Notes under the pieces: generated by a model
The model's input: only the letters and a program-made list of their open reading frames with translations
What the model was told of the DNA's origin: nothing
The model's database searches: none
Assembly: GCA_944387845.1 (NCBI GenBank)
Contig: CALXGH010000067.1
Coordinates: 1-64,000, forward strand
Reading direction: 5' to 3'
Length of the DNA stretch: 64,000 nucleotides
Source: an uncultured Oscillospiraceae bacterium
GTDB lineage: Bacteria > Bacillota > Clostridia > Oscillospirales > Oscillospiraceae
Position numbers and translations under genes: made by a program
Shown: positions 5,169 to 60,807 of the stretch, piece by piece
Layout of the letters: every line of letters begins with the position of its first letter
How positions within the stretch are numbered: the first letter of the stretch is position 1

Positions 5169-5445
5169 TTGACAAACACGAACAAAACTGATATATTTCT
5201 TTTGAAATAAGCGTTGAGAAAAGAAAAGTAGGAATATTTAGCCTCTTTCAGAGAAGTGCCGGCTGGTGAAAGGCATAGAGAGAATATTCTGAATACACTT
5301 TTTGAGCTGCCGAAAGGCCGGGTCAGCCCGTTACAGCCAAAGTGAGATTCACTTGTTGAGTTCGCTCCTGTGAAGGTGCGGAAAATCAGAGGTGGTACCG
5401 CGACTATTCGCCCTCTGTCCCAATCGGGACAGAGGGCGTTTTTGC
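5169..5445 (+). promoter_or_regulatory. Tyrosine T-box riboswitch leader with promoter
   Basis: Promoter TTGACA (5169-5174), 17-bp spacer, TATATT (5192-5197). The leader has a Stem I with the distal AG-bulge and loop region, then a specifier region GAAUACAC where UAC (Tyr, 5294-5296) is followed by a purine. The T-box sequence AGAGGTGGTACCGCG is at 5388-5402, and the terminator stem CGCCCTCTGTCCC / GGGACAGAGGGCG with a T run is at 5409-5443. Uncharged tRNA-Tyr should stabilise the antiterminator and switch on the downstream genes, which include tyrS two genes later. This fits the specifier. Confidence 0.93.
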
Positions 5446-6092: not shown

Positions 6093-6491
6093 ATGGACAG
6101 AAAAGAACTTGCGGCGCAGTGCCGCGCACAGAACTATAACTGCGCTCAGAGCGTGTTCTGCGCTTTTGAGGATCTCACAGGCCTTGACAGAGAGACATCT
6201 TTGGCTATCTGCGAGGGGCTGGGAGGAGGATTCCGTTGTGGAGAGATATGCGGTGCAGCTTCAGGCGCTGTTGCGGCTATCGGCCTTATTGTTAAGAACA
6301 AGGGACTGCCGGTGCTGAAAAGTGAGCTTGTAAAGGATATGACAAATGAGTTTACAAAGAGATTTACCGAAAAAGAGGGACATCTCACATGCAGAGACCT
6401 TCTGGCCTCCAGTGAGGTCAAGCTCTGCGGCAAATATATAGCCGACGCAGTAGAGATACTTGAGAGCATTTTGGAGGAAAATGGTATATGA
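6093..6491 (+). CDS. C_GCAxxG_C_C family protein
   Basis: A 132-residue Cys-rich small protein with the spaced motifs NYNCAQSVFCAF, GGGFRCGEICGAASGA and LTCRDLL...KLCGKYI, which define the C_GCAxxG_C_C (redox/metal-binding-like) family. The function of the family is not established; the conserved cysteines suggest cofactor binding or redox activity. The last codons overlap the tyrS start (ATGA), so translation is probably coupled. Cotranscription with tyrS behind a tyrosine T-box is unusual context for this family. Confidence 0.88.
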   Translation: MDRKELAAQCRAQNYNCAQSVFCAFEDLTGLDRETSLAICEGLGGGFRCGEICGAASGAVAAIGLIVKNKGLPVLKSELVKDMTNEFTKRFTEKEGHLTCRDLLASSEVKLCGKYIADAVEILESILEENGI

Positions 6492-7708
6492 CAATGTATG
6501 ATGAACTTGTGGCAAGAGGACTTATTGCCCAGGTAACCGACGAGGAAAAGGTAAGGGATCTTATTAATAATGGAAAAGCTGTATTTTATATCGGCTTTGA
6601 CTGTACTGCGGACAGCCTGACCGCCGGACATTTTATGGCGCTGACGCTTATGAAACGTCTTCAGATGGCAGGCAATAAGCCTATTGCTCTTATAGGCGGC
6701 GGCACGACCATGATAGGCGATCCATCAGGCCGCACGGATATGCGCCAGATGCTTACAAAAGAAACTATTGACCACAACGCAGAGTGCTTTAAGCGCCAGA
6801 TGGAGAGATTTGTGGACTTTTCTGACGGAAAGGCTCTTATGGTAAATAACGCTGACTGGCTTATGGACCTCAATTATGTTGAGCTTTTAAGAGAGGTAGG
6901 CGCCTGCTTCTCTGTAAACAATATGCTCAGGGCTGAGTGCTACAAACAGAGAATGGAAAAAGGTCTGAGTTTCCTTGAATTTAACTATATGATTATGCAG
7001 TCATACGACTTTTACCATATGTTCAAGACGCTGGGTTGTAATATGCAGTGTGGTGGTAATGACCAGTGGTCAAATATGCTGGGCGGTACAGAACTTATAA
7101 GACGTAAGCTCGGTGAGGACGCACATTGTATGACGATAACACTTCTCACAGACTCCCAGGGCAAGAAAATGGGCAAGACAGCGGGTAATGCTCTTTGGCT
7201 TGATGCCAACAAGACAAGCCCATACGAGTTTTATCAGTACTGGCGTAATGTTGACGATGCTGATGTACTGAAATGTATCCGTATGCTCACCTTTATACCT
7301 CTTGAGGAAATAGACGAGATGGATTCCTGGGAGGGAAGCCAGCTCAACCGTGCTAAGGAGATACTGGCATTTGAGCTTACAAAGCTTGTACACGGTGAGG
7401 AAGAGGCAAATAAAGCCCAGGAGACCGCAAGAGCTCTGTTTTCATCAGGGGGCGCAGCAGAAATGCCTACATTCCAGTTGTCTGAAGAAGATTTTACAGA
7501 CGGAAGTATCGATATCCTTGCAATACTGCAGAAGTCAGGTCTGTGCCCGTCAAAGAGTGAGGCAAGACGTGCTGTACAGCAGGGCGGTGTTGAGGCTGAC
7601 GGTGAGAAAGTTAAGGAGTTTTCTAAATCGTTCACCAAAGAACAGCTCTCAGGCGACGGTATAATTGTAAAACGCGGTAAGAAGAACTTTAAAAAAGTAG
7701 TATTCTAA
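6488..7708 (+). CDS. tyrS: Tyrosyl-tRNA synthetase
   Basis: A class I aminoacyl-tRNA synthetase of 406 residues that charges tRNA-Tyr. The HIGH-equivalent is TAGH (residues 45-48, in ADSLTAGHFM). IGDPSGR and the Tyr/Asp-binding segments (NYMIMQSYDFYHM, QCGGNDQWSN) are present, KMSKS is replaced by KMGKT (227-231), and a C-terminal S4 RNA-binding domain spans about 340-406. The start overlaps the upstream stop by 4 bases; a second ATG at 6494 is a possible alternative. It is controlled by the tyrosine T-box at 5169-5445. A single tyrS is seen in the window. Confidence 0.97.
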   Translation: MTMYDELVARGLIAQVTDEEKVRDLINNGKAVFYIGFDCTADSLTAGHFMALTLMKRLQMAGNKPIALIGGGTTMIGDPSGRTDMRQMLTKETIDHNAECFKRQMERFVDFSDGKALMVNNADWLMDLNYVELLREVGACFSVNNMLRAECYKQRMEKGLSFLEFNYMIMQSYDFYHMFKTLGCNMQCGGNDQWSNMLGGTELIRRKLGEDAHCMTITLLTDSQGKKMGKTAGNALWLDANKTSPYEFYQYWRNVDDADVLKCIRMLTFIPLEEIDEMDSWEGSQLNRAKEILAFELTKLVHGEEEANKAQETARALFSSGGAAEMPTFQLSEEDFTDGSIDILAILQKSGLCPSKSEARRAVQQGGVEADGEKVKEFSKSFTKEQLSGDGIIVKRGKKNFKKVVF

Positions 7709-50422: not shown

Positions 50423-50463
50423 GCACAAACGGTATCGAGCACCGAAAACAAAAGCTTTCAGCC

Positions 50464-50551
50464 AAATCCCTCCGCCGGCATTATCCGGATCAGGTCAAAG
50501 GGTCAGAGCGGCAATACGCTCAATCTCAGCCGGCTTGCACCAGCCCCCCTT
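50464..50551 (-). promoter_or_regulatory. TPP (THI element) riboswitch
   Basis: On the - strand the sequence contains the conserved aptamer blocks CUGAGA (within GCCGGCUGAGAUUGAGC), ACCCUUUGACCUGAUCCGG, AUAAUGCCGGCG and GAGGGA, in the right order and spacing. Thiamine pyrophosphate binding should favour the downstream terminator and shut off thiT. Confidence 0.95.
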
Positions 50552-50632
50552 ATTCACTTCCAAAAAAGAATAGCACAAATGTACTTTTTAGTCAAGAAAA
50601 AAAGGAAGTAGTCGAAAAACATGTTATGTAAA

Positions 50633-55291: not shown

Positions 55292-55993
55292 TTATCCACC
55301 CAAGTAAGCTTTTCTGATCTCGTCGCTTTGGATAAGATCCTGACCAGTGCCGGACAGTATGATTTTACCTGTCTCCAGAACATAGGCTCTGTCAGCGATG
55401 GAAAGGGCCATCTGAGCGTTCTGCTCAACAAGGAGGATTGTTGTGCCATTGTCTCTGAGTGCTTTTATAATATCGAAAATCTGCTCAACGAGAATTGGGG
55501 CAAGACCCATTGATGGCTCATCTAACATAAGAAGCTTAGGATGGCTCATAAGCGCTCTTCCGATTGCAAGCATTTGCTGCTCACCACCTGACAGAGTGCC
55601 GGCGATCTGCCGCTGCCTTTCATTAAGTCTTGGAAACTGCTTGTATACATCGTCAAGGTCCTGGCGGAGTTTACTGCCATCCTGAGTAAAAGCACCCATT
55701 TCCAGATTTTCCTGTACAGTCATCTGAAGGAAGATACGCCTTCCTTCGGGTACATGAGCAAGGCTTTGAGAGACGATTTTATGAGGAGGTGTATTTGATA
55801 TATTGTGTCCCAAAAATTCAATGGAACCGGTTGTAGACCGGAGCAGTCCGGAGATAGTTTTTAAAATCGTACTTTTGCCTGCGCCGTTAGCACCGATGAG
55901 AGTTACTATTTCGCCCTCGTTTACTTCAAAGGAGACACCTTTTATAGCATGAATGTTGCCGTAATATACGTTAATATCATTTACTTTTAACAT
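55292..55993 (-). CDS. livF: Branched-chain amino acid ABC transporter ATP-binding protein LivF
   Basis: 233 residues. INVYYGNIHAIKGVSFEVNEGE, Walker A GANGAGKST, LSGGEQQMLAIGRALM signature, Walker B LLMLDEPSMGLAP. The LivF-specific pattern (VPEGRRIF, SMGLAP) is clear. The ATG at 55993 follows GGAGG; upstream Arg-rich codons belong to the overlapping livG end. Last gene of the operon. Confidence 0.95.
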   Translation of the reverse strand: MLKVNDINVYYGNIHAIKGVSFEVNEGEIVTLIGANGAGKSTILKTISGLLRSTTGSIEFLGHNISNTPPHKIVSQSLAHVPEGRRIFLQMTVQENLEMGAFTQDGSKLRQDLDDVYKQFPRLNERQRQIAGTLSGGEQQMLAIGRALMSHPKLLMLDEPSMGLAPILVEQIFDIIKALRDNGTTILLVEQNAQMALSIADRAYVLETGKIILSGTGQDLIQSDEIRKAYLGG

Positions 55994-55994
55994 A

Positions 55995-56840
55995 TTACGC
56001 CTCCTTCTTCTTGCCAAGATATGCTTCAATTACCGCAGGGTTTGCCTGTATCTGTTCAGGATTTCCTTTAGCGATAACTTTTCCAAAGTTCAAAACGCAT
56101 ATACCCTCGCATACGCCCATGACGAGGTTCATATCGTGCTCGATAAGTATGATCGCGATGTGGAACAGGTCTCTTATGTGGCGTATGTTCTCCATAAGTT
56201 CTGCCGTCTCGGACGGGTTCATACCTGCGGCAGGTTCATCAAGAAGAAGCAGAGAGGGGTTGCTTGCAAGTGCCCTTACGATCTCCAGACGACGCTGGGC
56301 ACCGTAGGGGAGACTTCCGGCCTGGGCATTTGCCATGCCTTCCATATTGAATATGGAGAGGAGCTCCATAGCGCGCTCATGGGCAATCTTCTCATATTTC
56401 CAGTAACGTGGCATACGGAGGATGCCCTCAATAGAGCTGTAAGTTATGGAGTTGTGCATACCTATTTTAACGTTTTCCTCAACGGTTAAGGAATTGAAAA
56501 GACGTATATTCTGGAAAGTTCTTGCTATACCCAGTTTATTTACTTGGACGGTGGACATGCCGTGCGTGTCCACACCGTCCAGCAGGATAGTACCACGGGT
56601 AGGCTGATAAACTTTAGTCAAAAGGTTGAAAACAGTGGTTTTACCTGCGCCGTTAGGACCGATAAGACCGGCTATTTCGGTTTTGCCTATTGTGAGATTG
56701 AAATCGTCAACGGCGGTAAGACCACCAAAATCAATTCCAAGATGCCGTGCTTCAAGAATCGGCGTTTTGTCAAGGTCCCGTTCAGGTATAAAGGCGTTTG
56801 ATGGCGCCCATACGGATTTCGCATCAAGCGGCTTCTTCAT
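55995..56840 (-). CDS. livG: Branched-chain amino acid ABC transporter ATP-binding protein LivG
   Basis: 281 residues. GIDFGGLTAVDDFNLTI, Walker A GPNGAGKTT, LPYGAQRRLEIVRALA signature, Walker B LLLLDEPAAGMNP, and the LivG-type ARTFQNIRLF. An N-terminal extension of about 28 residues precedes the usual start, but GGAGAGG lies in front of this ATG. Overlaps livM by 17 bp. Confidence 0.95.
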   Translation of the reverse strand: MKKPLDAKSVWAPSNAFIPERDLDKTPILEARHLGIDFGGLTAVDDFNLTIGKTEIAGLIGPNGAGKTTVFNLLTKVYQPTRGTILLDGVDTHGMSTVQVNKLGIARTFQNIRLFNSLTVEENVKIGMHNSITYSSIEGILRMPRYWKYEKIAHERAMELLSIFNMEGMANAQAGSLPYGAQRRLEIVRALASNPSLLLLDEPAAGMNPSETAELMENIRHIRDLFHIAIILIEHDMNLVMGVCEGICVLNFGKVIAKGNPEQIQANPAVIEAYLGKKKEA

Positions 56841-57909
56841 CTGCTTCCTCTCCTTTCTTTCTGCGTGGAATTATCTTTTCAACAAGATTTTTGATCTGTG
56901 GGCTATTTGTGGCCAGCATAACAAGAATAAGGACTATTGCGTAAATGAGCATACGGTAATCTTCGAAGCCTCTTAAAGCCTCAGGCAATATGGTAAGTAT
57001 GACAGCGGAGATTATGGAACCCCATATATTTCCAAGGCCACCAAGTACAACATAAACAAGTATGAGTATGGATGTATTGAAATTAAACTTTGATGACATA
57101 AGGCTTGAGAAGTTAAGACCATAGAGCGCACCAGCGGCTCCCGCAAGGGCGGAGGAAATTACAAAAGCCATAAGTTTATATTTAGTGATATTTATGCCTA
57201 CGGACTCAGCAGCTATTCTATTGTCCCTTAAAGCCATGATGGCTCTGCCGCTGCGGCTTCTTATAAGATTCAGTACGATTACAAGGGTTATCATAATAAG
57301 GATAAAACCAACTGTAAATGTTGATATGGCCTTTACGCCGGTAGCACCTTGTGCCCCCTTGATTATCATAACTCCACCCTCCAGCAGGTTGAGGTCTGAA
57401 ACGCTCTTAGAACCGAAAGCGTTGAAGATAACGTGAAGGCCATTTGAATCAACACCTACAATGAGGCAGTTGATGACCTCTTTTATTATCTCACCAAAAG
57501 CCAGGGTTACTATTGCAAGATAGTCGCCCCGGAGCCTCAAAACAGGTATACCTATTATCACTCCGGCTATGGCTGCGAAGAACGCACCTACAATTATGGC
57601 GATTATAAGCCTAAGAACAGGGGAGGGAATAACAGTTTGAAGGCTCATGGCGGCAATAATGCCGGAAAATGCACCGACACTCATAAAGCCTGCGTGGCCA
57701 AGGCTCAGCTCACCGAGAACTCCTACTGTAAGGTTCAGGGAAATGGCCATTACTACATAGCAGCATATTGGTATGAGCTGACCTGTAAAGGAGCGGGTAA
57801 GAGCCCCATCGTTTTTAAGGGTATTTACGATTATAAAGGCGATAATTACGCCGATATATGTAGCAAAGTCTACAAGAGTGGTTTTTTTAATGCTTTTTAA
57901 TTTACTCAT
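56824..57909 (-). CDS. livM: Branched-chain amino acid ABC transporter permease LivM
   Basis: 361 residues with eight or more membrane helices. LSLGHAGFMSVGAFSGI, RLRGDYLAIVTLAFGEI and ALRDNRIAAESVGINITKYK are typical LivM motifs, and GLGNIWGSIISAVILTILPE near the end. Forms the membrane channel with LivH. Confidence 0.95.
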   Translation of the reverse strand: MSKLKSIKKTTLVDFATYIGVIIAFIIVNTLKNDGALTRSFTGQLIPICCYVVMAISLNLTVGVLGELSLGHAGFMSVGAFSGIIAAMSLQTVIPSPVLRLIIAIIVGAFFAAIAGVIIGIPVLRLRGDYLAIVTLAFGEIIKEVINCLIVGVDSNGLHVIFNAFGSKSVSDLNLLEGGVMIIKGAQGATGVKAISTFTVGFILIMITLVIVLNLIRSRSGRAIMALRDNRIAAESVGINITKYKLMAFVISSALAGAAGALYGLNFSSLMSSKFNFNTSILILVYVVLGGLGNIWGSIISAVILTILPEALRGFEDYRMLIYAIVLILVMLATNSPQIKNLVEKIIPRRKKGEEADEEAA

Positions 57910-57919
57910 ATCTTCAGCC

Positions 57920-58798
57920 TCAAACTTTCTCTGGAACGTATTTGCCTAAAAGACCTGCGGGGCGGACAAGGAGCACCACGATCAGAACTGCAAACACGAT
58001 GGCGTTTGAAATGTTTGTGGATATATATGCTTTTGCCATTGCCTCGATTATGCCAAGGAGAAGGCCGCCGAGGAAAGCGCCCGGTATGGAGCCAATACCA
58101 CCGAAAACTGCGGCGGTAAATGCCTTTATACCAGGCATGGAGCCTGTTGTAGGCATAAGAGTTGTGTAAGATGAACAAAGGAAAACACCAGCGACAGCGG
58201 CAAGTGCGGAGCCAATTGCAAATGTCATGGATATTGTTCTGTTAACGTTGATTCCCATAAGCTGAGCTGCGCCCTTATCCTCGGATACGGCGCGCATAGC
58301 CTTACCCATTTTGCTCCTGCTGGTAAAAAGTGTAAGAGCGATCATTATGATAACGCAAACCAAAAACGTAACAAGAGATATGTATGATATAGTCAGCTTG
58401 CCACCAAAAAGAGAGAGAGAACCGTTTATTATTACGGGATAAGATTTTGGATTTGGGCTGAATATCAGCTGGGCCGAATTCTGAAGGAAATAGCTGACGC
58501 CGATAGCGGTTATAAGGACCGCCAGAGAAGGTGCAGAGCGGAGCGGCCTGTAAGCAAGGCCCTCTATGACGACGCCCAATACCGTACATGCCACCATTGC
58601 GACCACGACAGCTGCCCACACCGGCAGTCCCCATGAGGTCATGGCTATAAGAGACACGTAACCACCGACCATGATAACATCACCGTGGGCGAAGTTAAGC
58701 ATTTTAGCGATGCCGTATACCATGGTATAGCCCAGAGCTATCATTGCATATACGCTACCAAGGCTTATACCGCTTATCAAGTACGATAAAAATACCAT
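57920..58798 (-). CDS. livH: Branched-chain amino acid ABC transporter permease LivH
   Basis: 292 residues. LIALGYTMVYGIAKMLNFAHGDVIMVGGYVS is the LivH signature start; AVSEDKGAAQLMGINVNRTI is the ATPase-coupling loop; FGGIGSIPGAFLGGLLLGIIEA is near the end. GGAAGG precedes the ATG. Confidence 0.95.
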   Translation of the reverse strand: MVFLSYLISGISLGSVYAMIALGYTMVYGIAKMLNFAHGDVIMVGGYVSLIAMTSWGLPVWAAVVVAMVACTVLGVVIEGLAYRPLRSAPSLAVLITAIGVSYFLQNSAQLIFSPNPKSYPVIINGSLSLFGGKLTISYISLVTFLVCVIIMIALTLFTSRSKMGKAMRAVSEDKGAAQLMGINVNRTISMTFAIGSALAAVAGVFLCSSYTTLMPTTGSMPGIKAFTAAVFGGIGSIPGAFLGGLLLGIIEAMAKAYISTNISNAIVFAVLIVVLLVRPAGLLGKYVPEKV

Positions 58799-58946: not shown

Positions 58947-60128
58947 TTAGTCAAGAACATATTTGCCGTCTGTGATTGTGTAAACTTTAGGAGACTTAGT
59001 AACCTGACCATTCTCGCTCCATGTCATGCCAGCGCCGGTAAGACCGTCAACAGCGAAATCAGGATCAGTAAATGTTTCTACAAGAGCGTCGCAGAGTTCT
59101 TCGGTTGTATCCATGGAGAGACCTGCTTCAGCGGCAGCCTCGTAAGCGGCTTTGATAGCGTAGATGCAGTCATAAGCGTCAGCTGCGAACTGGTTAGGAG
59201 TCTCGCCTGTCTTTTCTTTGTACTTTTCTACGAAGGATACAGTTGCATCGTCAGTCTCGTCAGCGGAGAATGGGCTGAGAACCTTTACGCCTTCAGCAAG
59301 AGTTGTGTCGAAACCATCAAGTGTAAGGATACCGTCCATACCGTCAACACCGAAGAACAGAGGAGAGTAGTTTGCTGCCTTAGCCTGAGCGAGGATTACG
59401 GAAGCCGGCTGATAATACATAGGCAGGAACAGAACGTCAGCGCCTGCAGCCTGAGCAGCGGCCAACTGTACAGAGAAGTCTGTGGATGTGTCTGTTGTGA
59501 ATGTACCTTCATAAACAAGCTCTACGCCGCCGTCAGCGAGAACACTCTTAAATGCGTCGAAGATACCCTGGGAATATGCATCATCGTTTTTGTAGATAGC
59601 TGCGATTTTGGAGTCAGCGTGGTTTTCCAGCATGTATTCTGCAGCTTCTGTACCCTGAGCAGGATCTGTGAAGCAAACCTGGAATACGTTATCCTTGCCG
59701 TTTGTAACGTCAGTAGAGGAAGCGGAAGGAGTGAGTGTGAATACACGGTCGGTATAAGCATTCTCTGAAACAGAGAGAGCCGGGCCTGTTGTTACAGGAC
59801 CTACGAGAACCTGCATGCCCCAGTCCATAAGATTGTTGTAAGCGTTTACAGCTGTTTCACCATCGCTAACATCGTCCATGCAGGAGAACTCTATCTGCAT
59901 GCCGTTGATGCCACCGTTTTCGTTGATCTCTTCAACAGCGATTTCTGCACCAGCCTTAACAGCTGTACCATATATAGCGGCTTCGCCTGTGAGCGGGCCT
60001 GTGCAGCCAATCTTAAATGTTGCGGTGTCGTTACCGCCGGTCTCTTCTTTGTCGTCCTTGTTGCTGCATCCAGCGAACACAGCCAGCATCATGACCAATG
60101 CCAGTGCAAGAGCTAAAAATTTTTTCAT
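58947..60128 (-). CDS. livK: Branched-chain amino acid-type substrate-binding lipoprotein
   Basis: 393 residues. A lipoprotein signal (KKFLALALALVMMLAVFAGC, Cys21) followed by a periplasmic-binding-protein type I fold: FKIGCTGPLTGEAAIYGTAVKAGAEIAVEEINENGGINGMQIEF, ALSVSENAYTDRVFTL and AADAYDCIYAIKAAYE. It delivers Leu/Ile/Val (or a related ligand) to LivHMGF. First structural gene of the operon, downstream of the proposed attenuator. Confidence 0.94.
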   Translation of the reverse strand: MKKFLALALALVMMLAVFAGCSNKDDKEETGGNDTATFKIGCTGPLTGEAAIYGTAVKAGAEIAVEEINENGGINGMQIEFSCMDDVSDGETAVNAYNNLMDWGMQVLVGPVTTGPALSVSENAYTDRVFTLTPSASSTDVTNGKDNVFQVCFTDPAQGTEAAEYMLENHADSKIAAIYKNDDAYSQGIFDAFKSVLADGGVELVYEGTFTTDTSTDFSVQLAAAQAAGADVLFLPMYYQPASVILAQAKAANYSPLFFGVDGMDGILTLDGFDTTLAEGVKVLSPFSADETDDATVSFVEKYKEKTGETPNQFAADAYDCIYAIKAAYEAAAEAGLSMDTTEELCDALVETFTDPDFAVDGLTGAGMTWSENGQVTKSPKVYTITDGKYVLD

Positions 60129-60175
60129 GATCTTTTCTCCTTTTTTATTTTAGTTTTTTTAAATTAATTTTTTAT

Positions 60176-60214
60176 ACAAAAAAACAGGCCTCGCAAGTTA
60201 AGCGAAGCCTGTTC
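60176..60214 (-). terminator. Intrinsic terminator in the liv leader (proposed attenuator)
   Basis: On the - strand: AACAGGC-t-TCGC / GCGA-g-GCCTGTT with a 6-base loop, followed directly by a run of seven T's. It lies between the small Ile/Val-rich ORF and the livK SD, so termination here would prevent liv expression. Confidence 0.85.
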
Positions 60215-60229
60215 CTTGAGTATACCTTT

Positions 60230-60478
60230 TTAGTTCCCAAAAAATAAACTATACTTTAACCTGCTGTATTTTCTTCTGCAAAAGACAATAATGACGTCAA
60301 TAATATCTACCACGACGACGCTAATGACGTTAATGACAGATAGAACAAAAGAAAAAATGGACACTATAATAGTGCCCATAATTACAGCAATATTGAAAAA
60401 GAAGCAGGAATTATTGTCCTCTGCAAACGCAGCGGATGTAGGACAAGTATTAGGATTATTAAAGAAATACTTTGTCAT
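60230..60478 (-). CDS. Small Ile/Val-rich ORF, proposed attenuator leader peptide
   Basis: 82 codons from ATG 60478, preceded by AAGGA. The first 30 residues are polar and Asn/Cys/Phe containing. The next 38 residues contain 11 Ile, 11 Val and one Leu, with VISVVVVDIIDVIIVF as the densest part. The stop codon lies 16-20 bp before the terminator stem. A promoter TTGACA-16-TAAATT is placed at 60542-60515. Either a leader peptide sensing branched-chain aminoacyl-tRNA, or a small one- or two-helix membrane protein; the hydrophobic composition fits both. Confidence 0.6.
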   Translation of the reverse strand: MTKYFFNNPNTCPTSAAFAEDNNSCFFFNIAVIMGTIIVSIFSFVLSVINVISVVVVDIIDVIIVFCRRKYSRLKYSLFFGN

Positions 60479-60514
60479 CTTCCTGTTTCCTTTCAAAAAA
60501 ATTCTATAAATCAT

Positions 60515-60807
60515 AATTTAACAGAAAACTGAAGATTGTCAATTGTTATTTTGCATATTTTTATAAGCGTTTTTTTGCATAATGTATATATAATAAACAA
60601 GGCTATAAATGCATGATGATAGGGAAGGGTCGAAATTTGGCGTATTTTGAAGTTTAAAATCACTTAATATAAAAAAAGTATATTTTATATAAAATCATTT
60701 GAGGTTTTTTGCATTTTATGTGGATATAATTACATTTTACTGTTGAAAACTGGAAAATTTCATGGTAAATTATACCTTGATTTAAGGAAATAACGGAGAT
60801 GTTTTAA
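60515..60807. promoter_or_regulatory. AT-rich gap: liv promoter and degV upstream region
   Basis: Contains the - strand promoter TTGACA (60542-60537), 16-bp spacer, TAAATT (60520-60515) for the liv leader. The remaining sequence to 60790 is very AT-rich with no coding potential; degV has GGAG before its ATG. Confidence 0.5.

Follow-up and report, generated by a model that had tools for sequence, protein, structure and literature searches.

Organization of the liv locus

The operon studied here lies on the minus strand of a 64,000-nucleotide stretch of DNA, which is referred to below as the window. A promoter-like site, the SD-like sequence AAAGGA, a leader ORF, an intrinsic terminator and livK (start at 60128) follow one another in this order, with livHMGF behind them (Table 1). 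Domains of the LivK, LivH, LivM, LivG and LivF types were confirmed with Pfam, in agreement with the earlier reading of these genes as an operon for branched-chain amino acid import. That reading, a first-pass annotation of the sequence, had also proposed a promoter ahead of a small ORF with 22 Ile/Val and 1 Leu, and an intrinsic terminator at 60214-60176. All of these were recovered: the promoter as a promoter-like match in a consensus scan, the Ile/Val run at residues 30-65 of the ORF, and the terminator as AACAGGCTTCGC-TTAACTT-GCGAGGCCTGTT followed by T7, at 60213-60178. A simple terminator scan missed this hairpin and listed one within the ORF (60379-60357), which turned out to be the conserved hairpin P1 described below. 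The leader RNA (60507-60130) has a fold that beats 100 of 100 shuffled sequences (z = -5.4). An SD-like sequence and a start codon mark the ORF as putatively translatable, both here and in most relatives.

Table 1. Features of the liv operon and its leader region, in window coordinates
Feature	Position	Strand	Basis or remark
Promoter-like site TTGACA-16-TAAATT (putative)	60515..60542	-	Consensus scan, 10/12
Putative leader peptide ORF, 82 codons plus stop	60230..60478	-	SD-like AAAGGA ahead; relatives alike
Ile/Val run, residues 30-65 (proposed control codons)	60284..60391	-	22 Ile/Val and 1 Leu
P1 hairpin within the leader ORF	60357..60379	-	Terminator scan; pairs kept in relatives
U-rich RNA 3' of P1	about 60356-60347	-	
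Predicted antiterminator 5' strand GCAGGTTAA, within the ORF end	60256..60264	-	Folds, swap tests
Predicted antiterminator 3' strand TTAACTTGC (terminator loop and first two bases of 3' arm)	60193..60201	-	Folds, swap tests
Intrinsic terminator: 12-bp stem, 7-nt loop, seven T	60178..60213	-	Sequence, folds
livK, substrate-binding protein	58947..60128	-	PF13458 Peripla_BP_6, E = 4.4e-55
livH, permease	57920..58798	-	PF02653
livM, permease	56824..57909	-	PF02653
livG, ATPase	55995..56840	-	PF00005 and PF12399
livF, ATPase (start codon provisional)	55292..56029	-	PF00005

Recurrence of the leader in related genomes

About 60 other loci, mostly from Oscillospirales, have the same layout, and nearly all of them lie directly upstream of a LivK-type gene. 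They share a Ser/Ala/Cys-rich start, an in-frame hairpin (P1) followed by U-rich RNA, an Ile/Leu/Val run and a stop codon ~15 nt before the terminator. A scan for LivK in a collection of 84,980 species yielded 80 loci, and the layout was found in the ~400 nt before livK in 27 of them. Since a single-sequence protein search of 60 relatives matched the window alone, a leader profile was needed for a search blind to the neighbouring gene. The profile was run on 394 genomes from the order and 400 from the family, and 42 matches were examined; in 36 of them a LivK-type gene follows immediately, an association that is partly built in because livK leaders had served to train the profile. The first-pass annotation had named conservation of the run and terminator as a check on its reading, and leader, run, stop codon and terminator do recur in both searches.

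The outcome that would have refuted the attenuator reading, conservation of the small protein without the terminator or at unrelated loci, was not seen: a terminator accompanies every leader that we retained, and the few true matches not followed by LivK precede other transporter genes. Two of these, L126 (G562:C71:7325-7480) and L128 (G515:C7:12843-12989), come from two genomes of one genus, are near-identical in leader and gene start, and lie upstream of an SNF-family (sodium:neurotransmitter) symporter gene (PF00209) that appears interrupted or misassembled in L128. Two others, L127 (G031:C35:8109-8267) and L136 (G398:C11:47760-47906), lie upstream of a lactate permease-like gene; both have P1 and the terminator, with a shorter Ile/Leu/Val run. 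The matches L134 and L135 were false. The four non-LivK leaders are included in a dataset of 64 distinct leaders, 55-107 codons in length.

The common leader was absent from the Synergistaceae LivK loci examined. Some livK genes of this family carry a different leader ORF of 35-37 codons (e.g., with IIPAIIIR), followed by a terminator, about 100-290 nt ahead of livK (L060, L066, L067, L075 and L079). These short leaders may constitute an independent attenuator that belongs to a different phylum.

Competing terminator and antiterminator structures

When each leader was folded up to the terminator loop, a long alternative hairpin emerged, in which the last codons of the ORF form the outer 5' strand, the terminator 5' arm and loop form the 3' side, and the stop codon lies inside. 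In the window, GCAGGTTAA pairs with TTAACTTGC in the outer helix, to which inner helices are added; this much longer and conserved pairing replaces the antiterminator suggested earlier, GCAGAAG with CTTCGC. The ORF strand and loop strand of the outer helix are CGACCTG and CAGGTCG in L005, CGCCATG and CATGGCG in L030 of the cultured relative Oscillibacter valericigenes, GCTCCAAAG and CTTTGGAGC in L061, and CGATCAAAAC and GTTTTGGTCG in L023. Because the outer helix varies in this way, RNAalifold on subgroup alignments gave few double changes and a weak signal, and was uninformative for this helix. We therefore used a swap test in which ORF ends were exchanged among the 64 leaders.

Native combinations had a mean of -22.8 kcal/mol, as compared with -18.5 kcal/mol (sd 0.3) after exchange, and none of 20,000 permutations, which ignore relatedness, was as low. 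Pairing with the terminator loop alone gave the same picture (-10.0 native vs -7.9 exchanged; 0 of 20,000 permutations, relatedness again ignored). For the window itself, the native value was -23.6 kcal/mol and the exchanged value -13.0 kcal/mol, with none of the 63 swaps as good. Synonymous recoding of the ORF end weakened the antiterminator in 50 of 64 leaders; in some of the 64, such as L025 and L132, a convincing antiterminator was not found. An antiterminator that excludes the terminator is therefore present in the window and most relatives, and by the swap test it covaries.

At equilibrium, the terminator fold of the window is more stable than the antiterminator (-34.3 vs -25.2), and hence the latter has to form before the terminator does. 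This is feasible because the terminator 5' arm, the loop and two bases at the beginning of the 3' arm are all that it needs. The distance from the stop codon to the terminator 5' arm has a median of 15 nt, and that from the last codon of the run to the antiterminator strand a median of 16 nt (19 nt in the window). Both spacings fit a ribosome that would disturb the antiterminator and free the terminator when at the stop codon, and would just free the antiterminator when stalled in the run. The outer antiterminator strand ends 22-23 nt from the stop codon in the window, as against the usual 10-17 nt in relatives, and a ribosome at the stop codon may thus not cover this strand fully; it would cover the inner helices.

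TATAC or GATAC ahead of the terminator can also pair with GTATA(AT) just past the T-tract (60226-60221 with 60177-60172 in the window). Both motifs are kept in many leaders, the second lying beyond the expected termination point. In relatives, the TATAAT-like TTTTTTGTATAAT past the terminator can likewise pair with ATAC/TATAC ahead of it. A second promoter built on TTTTTTGTATAAT was considered and rejected, as no well-spaced -35 element was seen by eye.

A conserved hairpin within the reading frame

P1 is a hairpin of 9-10 bp (e.g., TGGACGCCAT-N4-ATGGCGTCCA) with U-rich RNA directly 3' of it, situated ~112 nt past the start codon and ~118 nt ahead of the stop codon. It was located in the 64 leaders, and its tail has a mean of 6.5 T per 9 nt. 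In the 58 leaders with standard geometry, 522 of 522 cells were kept for the nine inner pairs and 520 of 522 for the nine outermost, with both misses in the outermost pair, although pairing as such is favoured by construction because the search chose the best hairpin per leader. The compensatory changes (e.g., G-C to A-T, G-C to C-G and T-A to A-T) and the shared position are not favoured in this manner. The same covariation is visible in the peptide, where the P1-encoded residues combine as Ala with Ala 29 times, Thr with Val 25 times and Thr with Ala never. The conserved protein segment LDA..AS coincides with P1 and covaries as base pairing demands; nature here offers an example of a protein sequence visibly dictated by RNA structure.

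A search for the P1 DNA pattern, blind to both peptide and gene, gave 35 real matches in 400 genomes as compared with one for a reversed control, and LivK was found 230-420 nt downstream in 22 of the 30 loci examined. The remaining eight, which lack LivK, appear to be chance matches or palindromes. P1 and its U-rich tail are probably a pause site or a weak terminator. Computation on the aligned and exchanged sequences points to selection at the RNA level on both P1 and the antiterminator.

The conserved structure of the leader thus consists of an in-frame hairpin and a stop-codon hairpin, both tied to translation, which argues against control of the terminator by a ligand-binding riboswitch or a T-box with an incidental ORF. 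T-boxes are usual for amino-acid genes in Firmicutes, and one exists elsewhere in the window; even so, we consider this explanation highly improbable. No Rfam family reached its gathering score here or in 18 related loci, tRNAs in L075 aside, and the weak listings fall far below gathering. Among the leader families of Rfam release 15, the best was Phe_leader, with 25 bits against a required 55 and matches on both strands. The T-box model (RF00230) was found neither at the leader nor in related loci, and its sole match in a scan of the whole window is at 5205-5418 on the plus strand. From this match we conclude that the organism also uses T-boxes. Downstream of it come an ORF resembling metal-dependent hydrolases (from about 5460) and then a gene of the tyrosyl-tRNA synthetase type (6488-7708). 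The window also contains a TPP riboswitch (RF00059) at 50450-50560 on the minus strand.

Codon usage and evolution of the leader peptide

The best 38-residue stretch of the window leader contains 23 Ile, Leu or Val residues, whereas the best stretch in any of 52 other non-overlapping window ORFs of at least 150 aa, membrane proteins included, contains at most 20; the leader run is therefore richer in these residues than even membrane proteins. For Ile and Val only, the values are 22 and at most 15. Codon choice in the run was determined in the leaders of the 27 named loci, with the genes of the window and of these loci as reference. GTA accounts for 64% of Val codons in the run and 7% in neighbouring genes, a shift displayed by all 18 loci with enough Val. 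Similarly, Ile is encoded by ATT in 73% vs 20% and by ATA in 18% vs 6% of cases. Leu is mostly CTG, and Gly, Ser and Cys are near normal. The bias is thus confined to Val and Ile, apart from a shift of Phe towards TTT. For the window, the figures are ATT in 10 of 11 Ile codons and GTC in 6 of 11 Val codons, as compared with 28% and 15%, respectively, in window genes. Rare control codons are common in attenuators. Ahead of P1, Ala, Ser and Cys make up ~55% of the leader, and Ala and Cys are not encoded by rare codons in this part. Rho loading on the first half of the leader was considered and set aside, C being only slightly more frequent than G (0.30 vs 0.23).

The hydrophobicity of the run would allow it to span a membrane, and the ORF is conserved beside livK. 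Its product could, accordingly, be a genuine small membrane protein such as an accessory importer subunit, with Ile and Val forming a membrane helix and an ordinary terminator behind the ORF. The length of the ORF points the same way: the first-pass annotation had cautioned that it is long for a leader peptide, a caveat that stands, and its 82 codons exceed any leader peptide known to us. Several observations nevertheless make such a protein very unlikely. No Pfam or NCBIfam family matches the leader peptides, except for TrbC, weakly, in one of 27 members (E = 0.0015). The conserved segment lies at P1 and covaries as its base pairs demand, the terminator loop finds its pairing partner in the ORF end, and rare codons are concentrated on Val and Ile. 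Finally, in the same genome pairs dN/dS is 0.27-0.96 for the leader and 0.11-0.44 for LivK, and it is higher for the leader in every pair except L117/L109, although leader values may be inflated because RNA constraint may lower leader dS. Codon choice, RNA covariation and protein change faster than that of LivK together answer the earlier doubt that membrane helices might explain the Ile/Val content.

Proposed mechanism

Based on our results, we suggest that the leader is a ribosome-mediated transcription attenuator of the branched-chain amino acid import operon, an explanation to which we assign a probability of roughly 85%. The elements of an attenuator of the trp/ilv/leu type are found here: a putatively translatable leader ORF with a ribosome-binding site, control codons for the amino acids that the operon handles, a terminator between the ORF and the first gene, and a mutually exclusive antiterminator. 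This anatomy is supported by computation, as are the spacing of its parts, their recurrence in relatives and the action of selection on P1 and the antiterminator at the RNA level. The attenuator reading of the first-pass annotation gains support, at the level of sequence, from conservation, the covarying antiterminator and codon choice. From these features we infer pausing, stalling, read-through and a response to amino acids, and from the spacing an effect of the ribosome on antiterminator choice.

As the polymerase transcribes the leader, P1 would probably make it pause, allowing the ribosome to catch up. If charged tRNA-Ile and tRNA-Val are plentiful (in relatives, tRNA-Leu too), the ribosome would pass the Ile/Val codons and reach the stop codon, where it would break or cover the inner antiterminator helices, so that the terminator forms and transcription ends ahead of livK. 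A shortage of charged tRNA, by contrast, would make the ribosome stall in the run and leave the ORF end free. The free end could pair with the terminator 5' arm and loop, through 60264-60256 with 60201-60193 and the inner helices, before the terminator 3' arm is synthesized, and livKHMGF would be transcribed.

A variant of this mechanism assigns P1 a larger role. P1 and its U-rich tail may be a terminator within the ORF that stops polymerase not closely followed by a ribosome, which would create two serial checkpoints. P1 would sense general translation or, via the first half of the peptide, the supply of Ser, Ala and Cys; the second terminator would read branched-chain tRNA charging by means of the long, rare-codon-rich run, the set being occasionally reused before other transporters. 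A second brake would be useful because without translation the antiterminator should form freely, and this variant fits both the Ser/Ala/Cys-rich stretch ahead of P1 and the finding of P1, U-rich tail included, across the 64 leaders. However, the tail is interrupted in many leaders (ATTATTATTT), more like a pause site, and the codons for Ala and Cys are ordinary ones. We regard the variant as a tentative possibility. If this attenuator is real, it would reveal how branched-chain amino acid uptake is tied to tRNA charging in many anaerobic Clostridia, and its in-frame hairpin makes transcription-translation coupling in Clostridia testable.

Comparison with known systems

Leader-peptide attenuation is textbook knowledge for amino-acid synthesis. 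For transport, premature termination before E. coli livJ and an effect of leucyl-tRNA on liv transport were reportedly described decades ago. We found no prior description of the present device in the open-access literature that we searched. Its logic is that of classical attenuation; it is set apart by the long two-part leader, the conserved in-frame hairpin and the transporter target, and in this form it has apparently not been catalogued before.

Leader peptides that replace T-boxes in Firmicutes have been noted for hisS (PMC2965389). A close parallel among branched-chain systems in this group is Rli60 of the Listeria monocytogenes ilv-leu operon (PMC5864092), which likewise combines branched-chain codons with a ribosome-mediated choice between terminator and antiterminator, whereas its peptide has 13 aa, its target is a biosynthesis operon and no conserved in-frame hairpin is described. 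The Staphylococcus aureus ilvD attenuator (PMC5794164) also has a Leu/Ile-rich leader peptide and a terminator, but it controls biosynthesis, its terminator lies 52 nt past the stop codon, and its proposed antiterminator keeps the terminator stem and sequesters the poly-U. The uORF motif of Corynebacterium ilvB-II (PMC10272879), found by covariation, resembles our leader in its I/L/V-rich uORF, terminator and antiterminator and differs in peptide length (15-17 aa), phylum (Actinobacteria) and target (ilvBNC). The classical ribosome-mediated logic is shared with E. coli ilvGMEDA, ilvBN and leuABCD, which are biosynthesis operons of Proteobacteria with shorter leaders; of the 32 residues of the ilvGMEDA leader, 15 are branched-chain ones (PMC6123439).

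For liv importers, the sole comparable case that we found in the open-access literature is the Streptomyces livJ motif, which also lies upstream of genes for branched-chain amino acid binding proteins but is described as a riboswitch candidate with the SD in a bulge and no leader peptide (PMC11109978). The role proposed for P1 has a parallel in the Bacillus subtilis yxjB/tlrB leader (PMC6851288), where a hairpin-associated pause lets the ribosome catch up and thereby synchronizes polymerase with ribosome; there, however, stalling depends on an antibiotic, the peptide has 9 aa, and the pause site lies between peptide and gene, while P1 lies within the reading frame itself.
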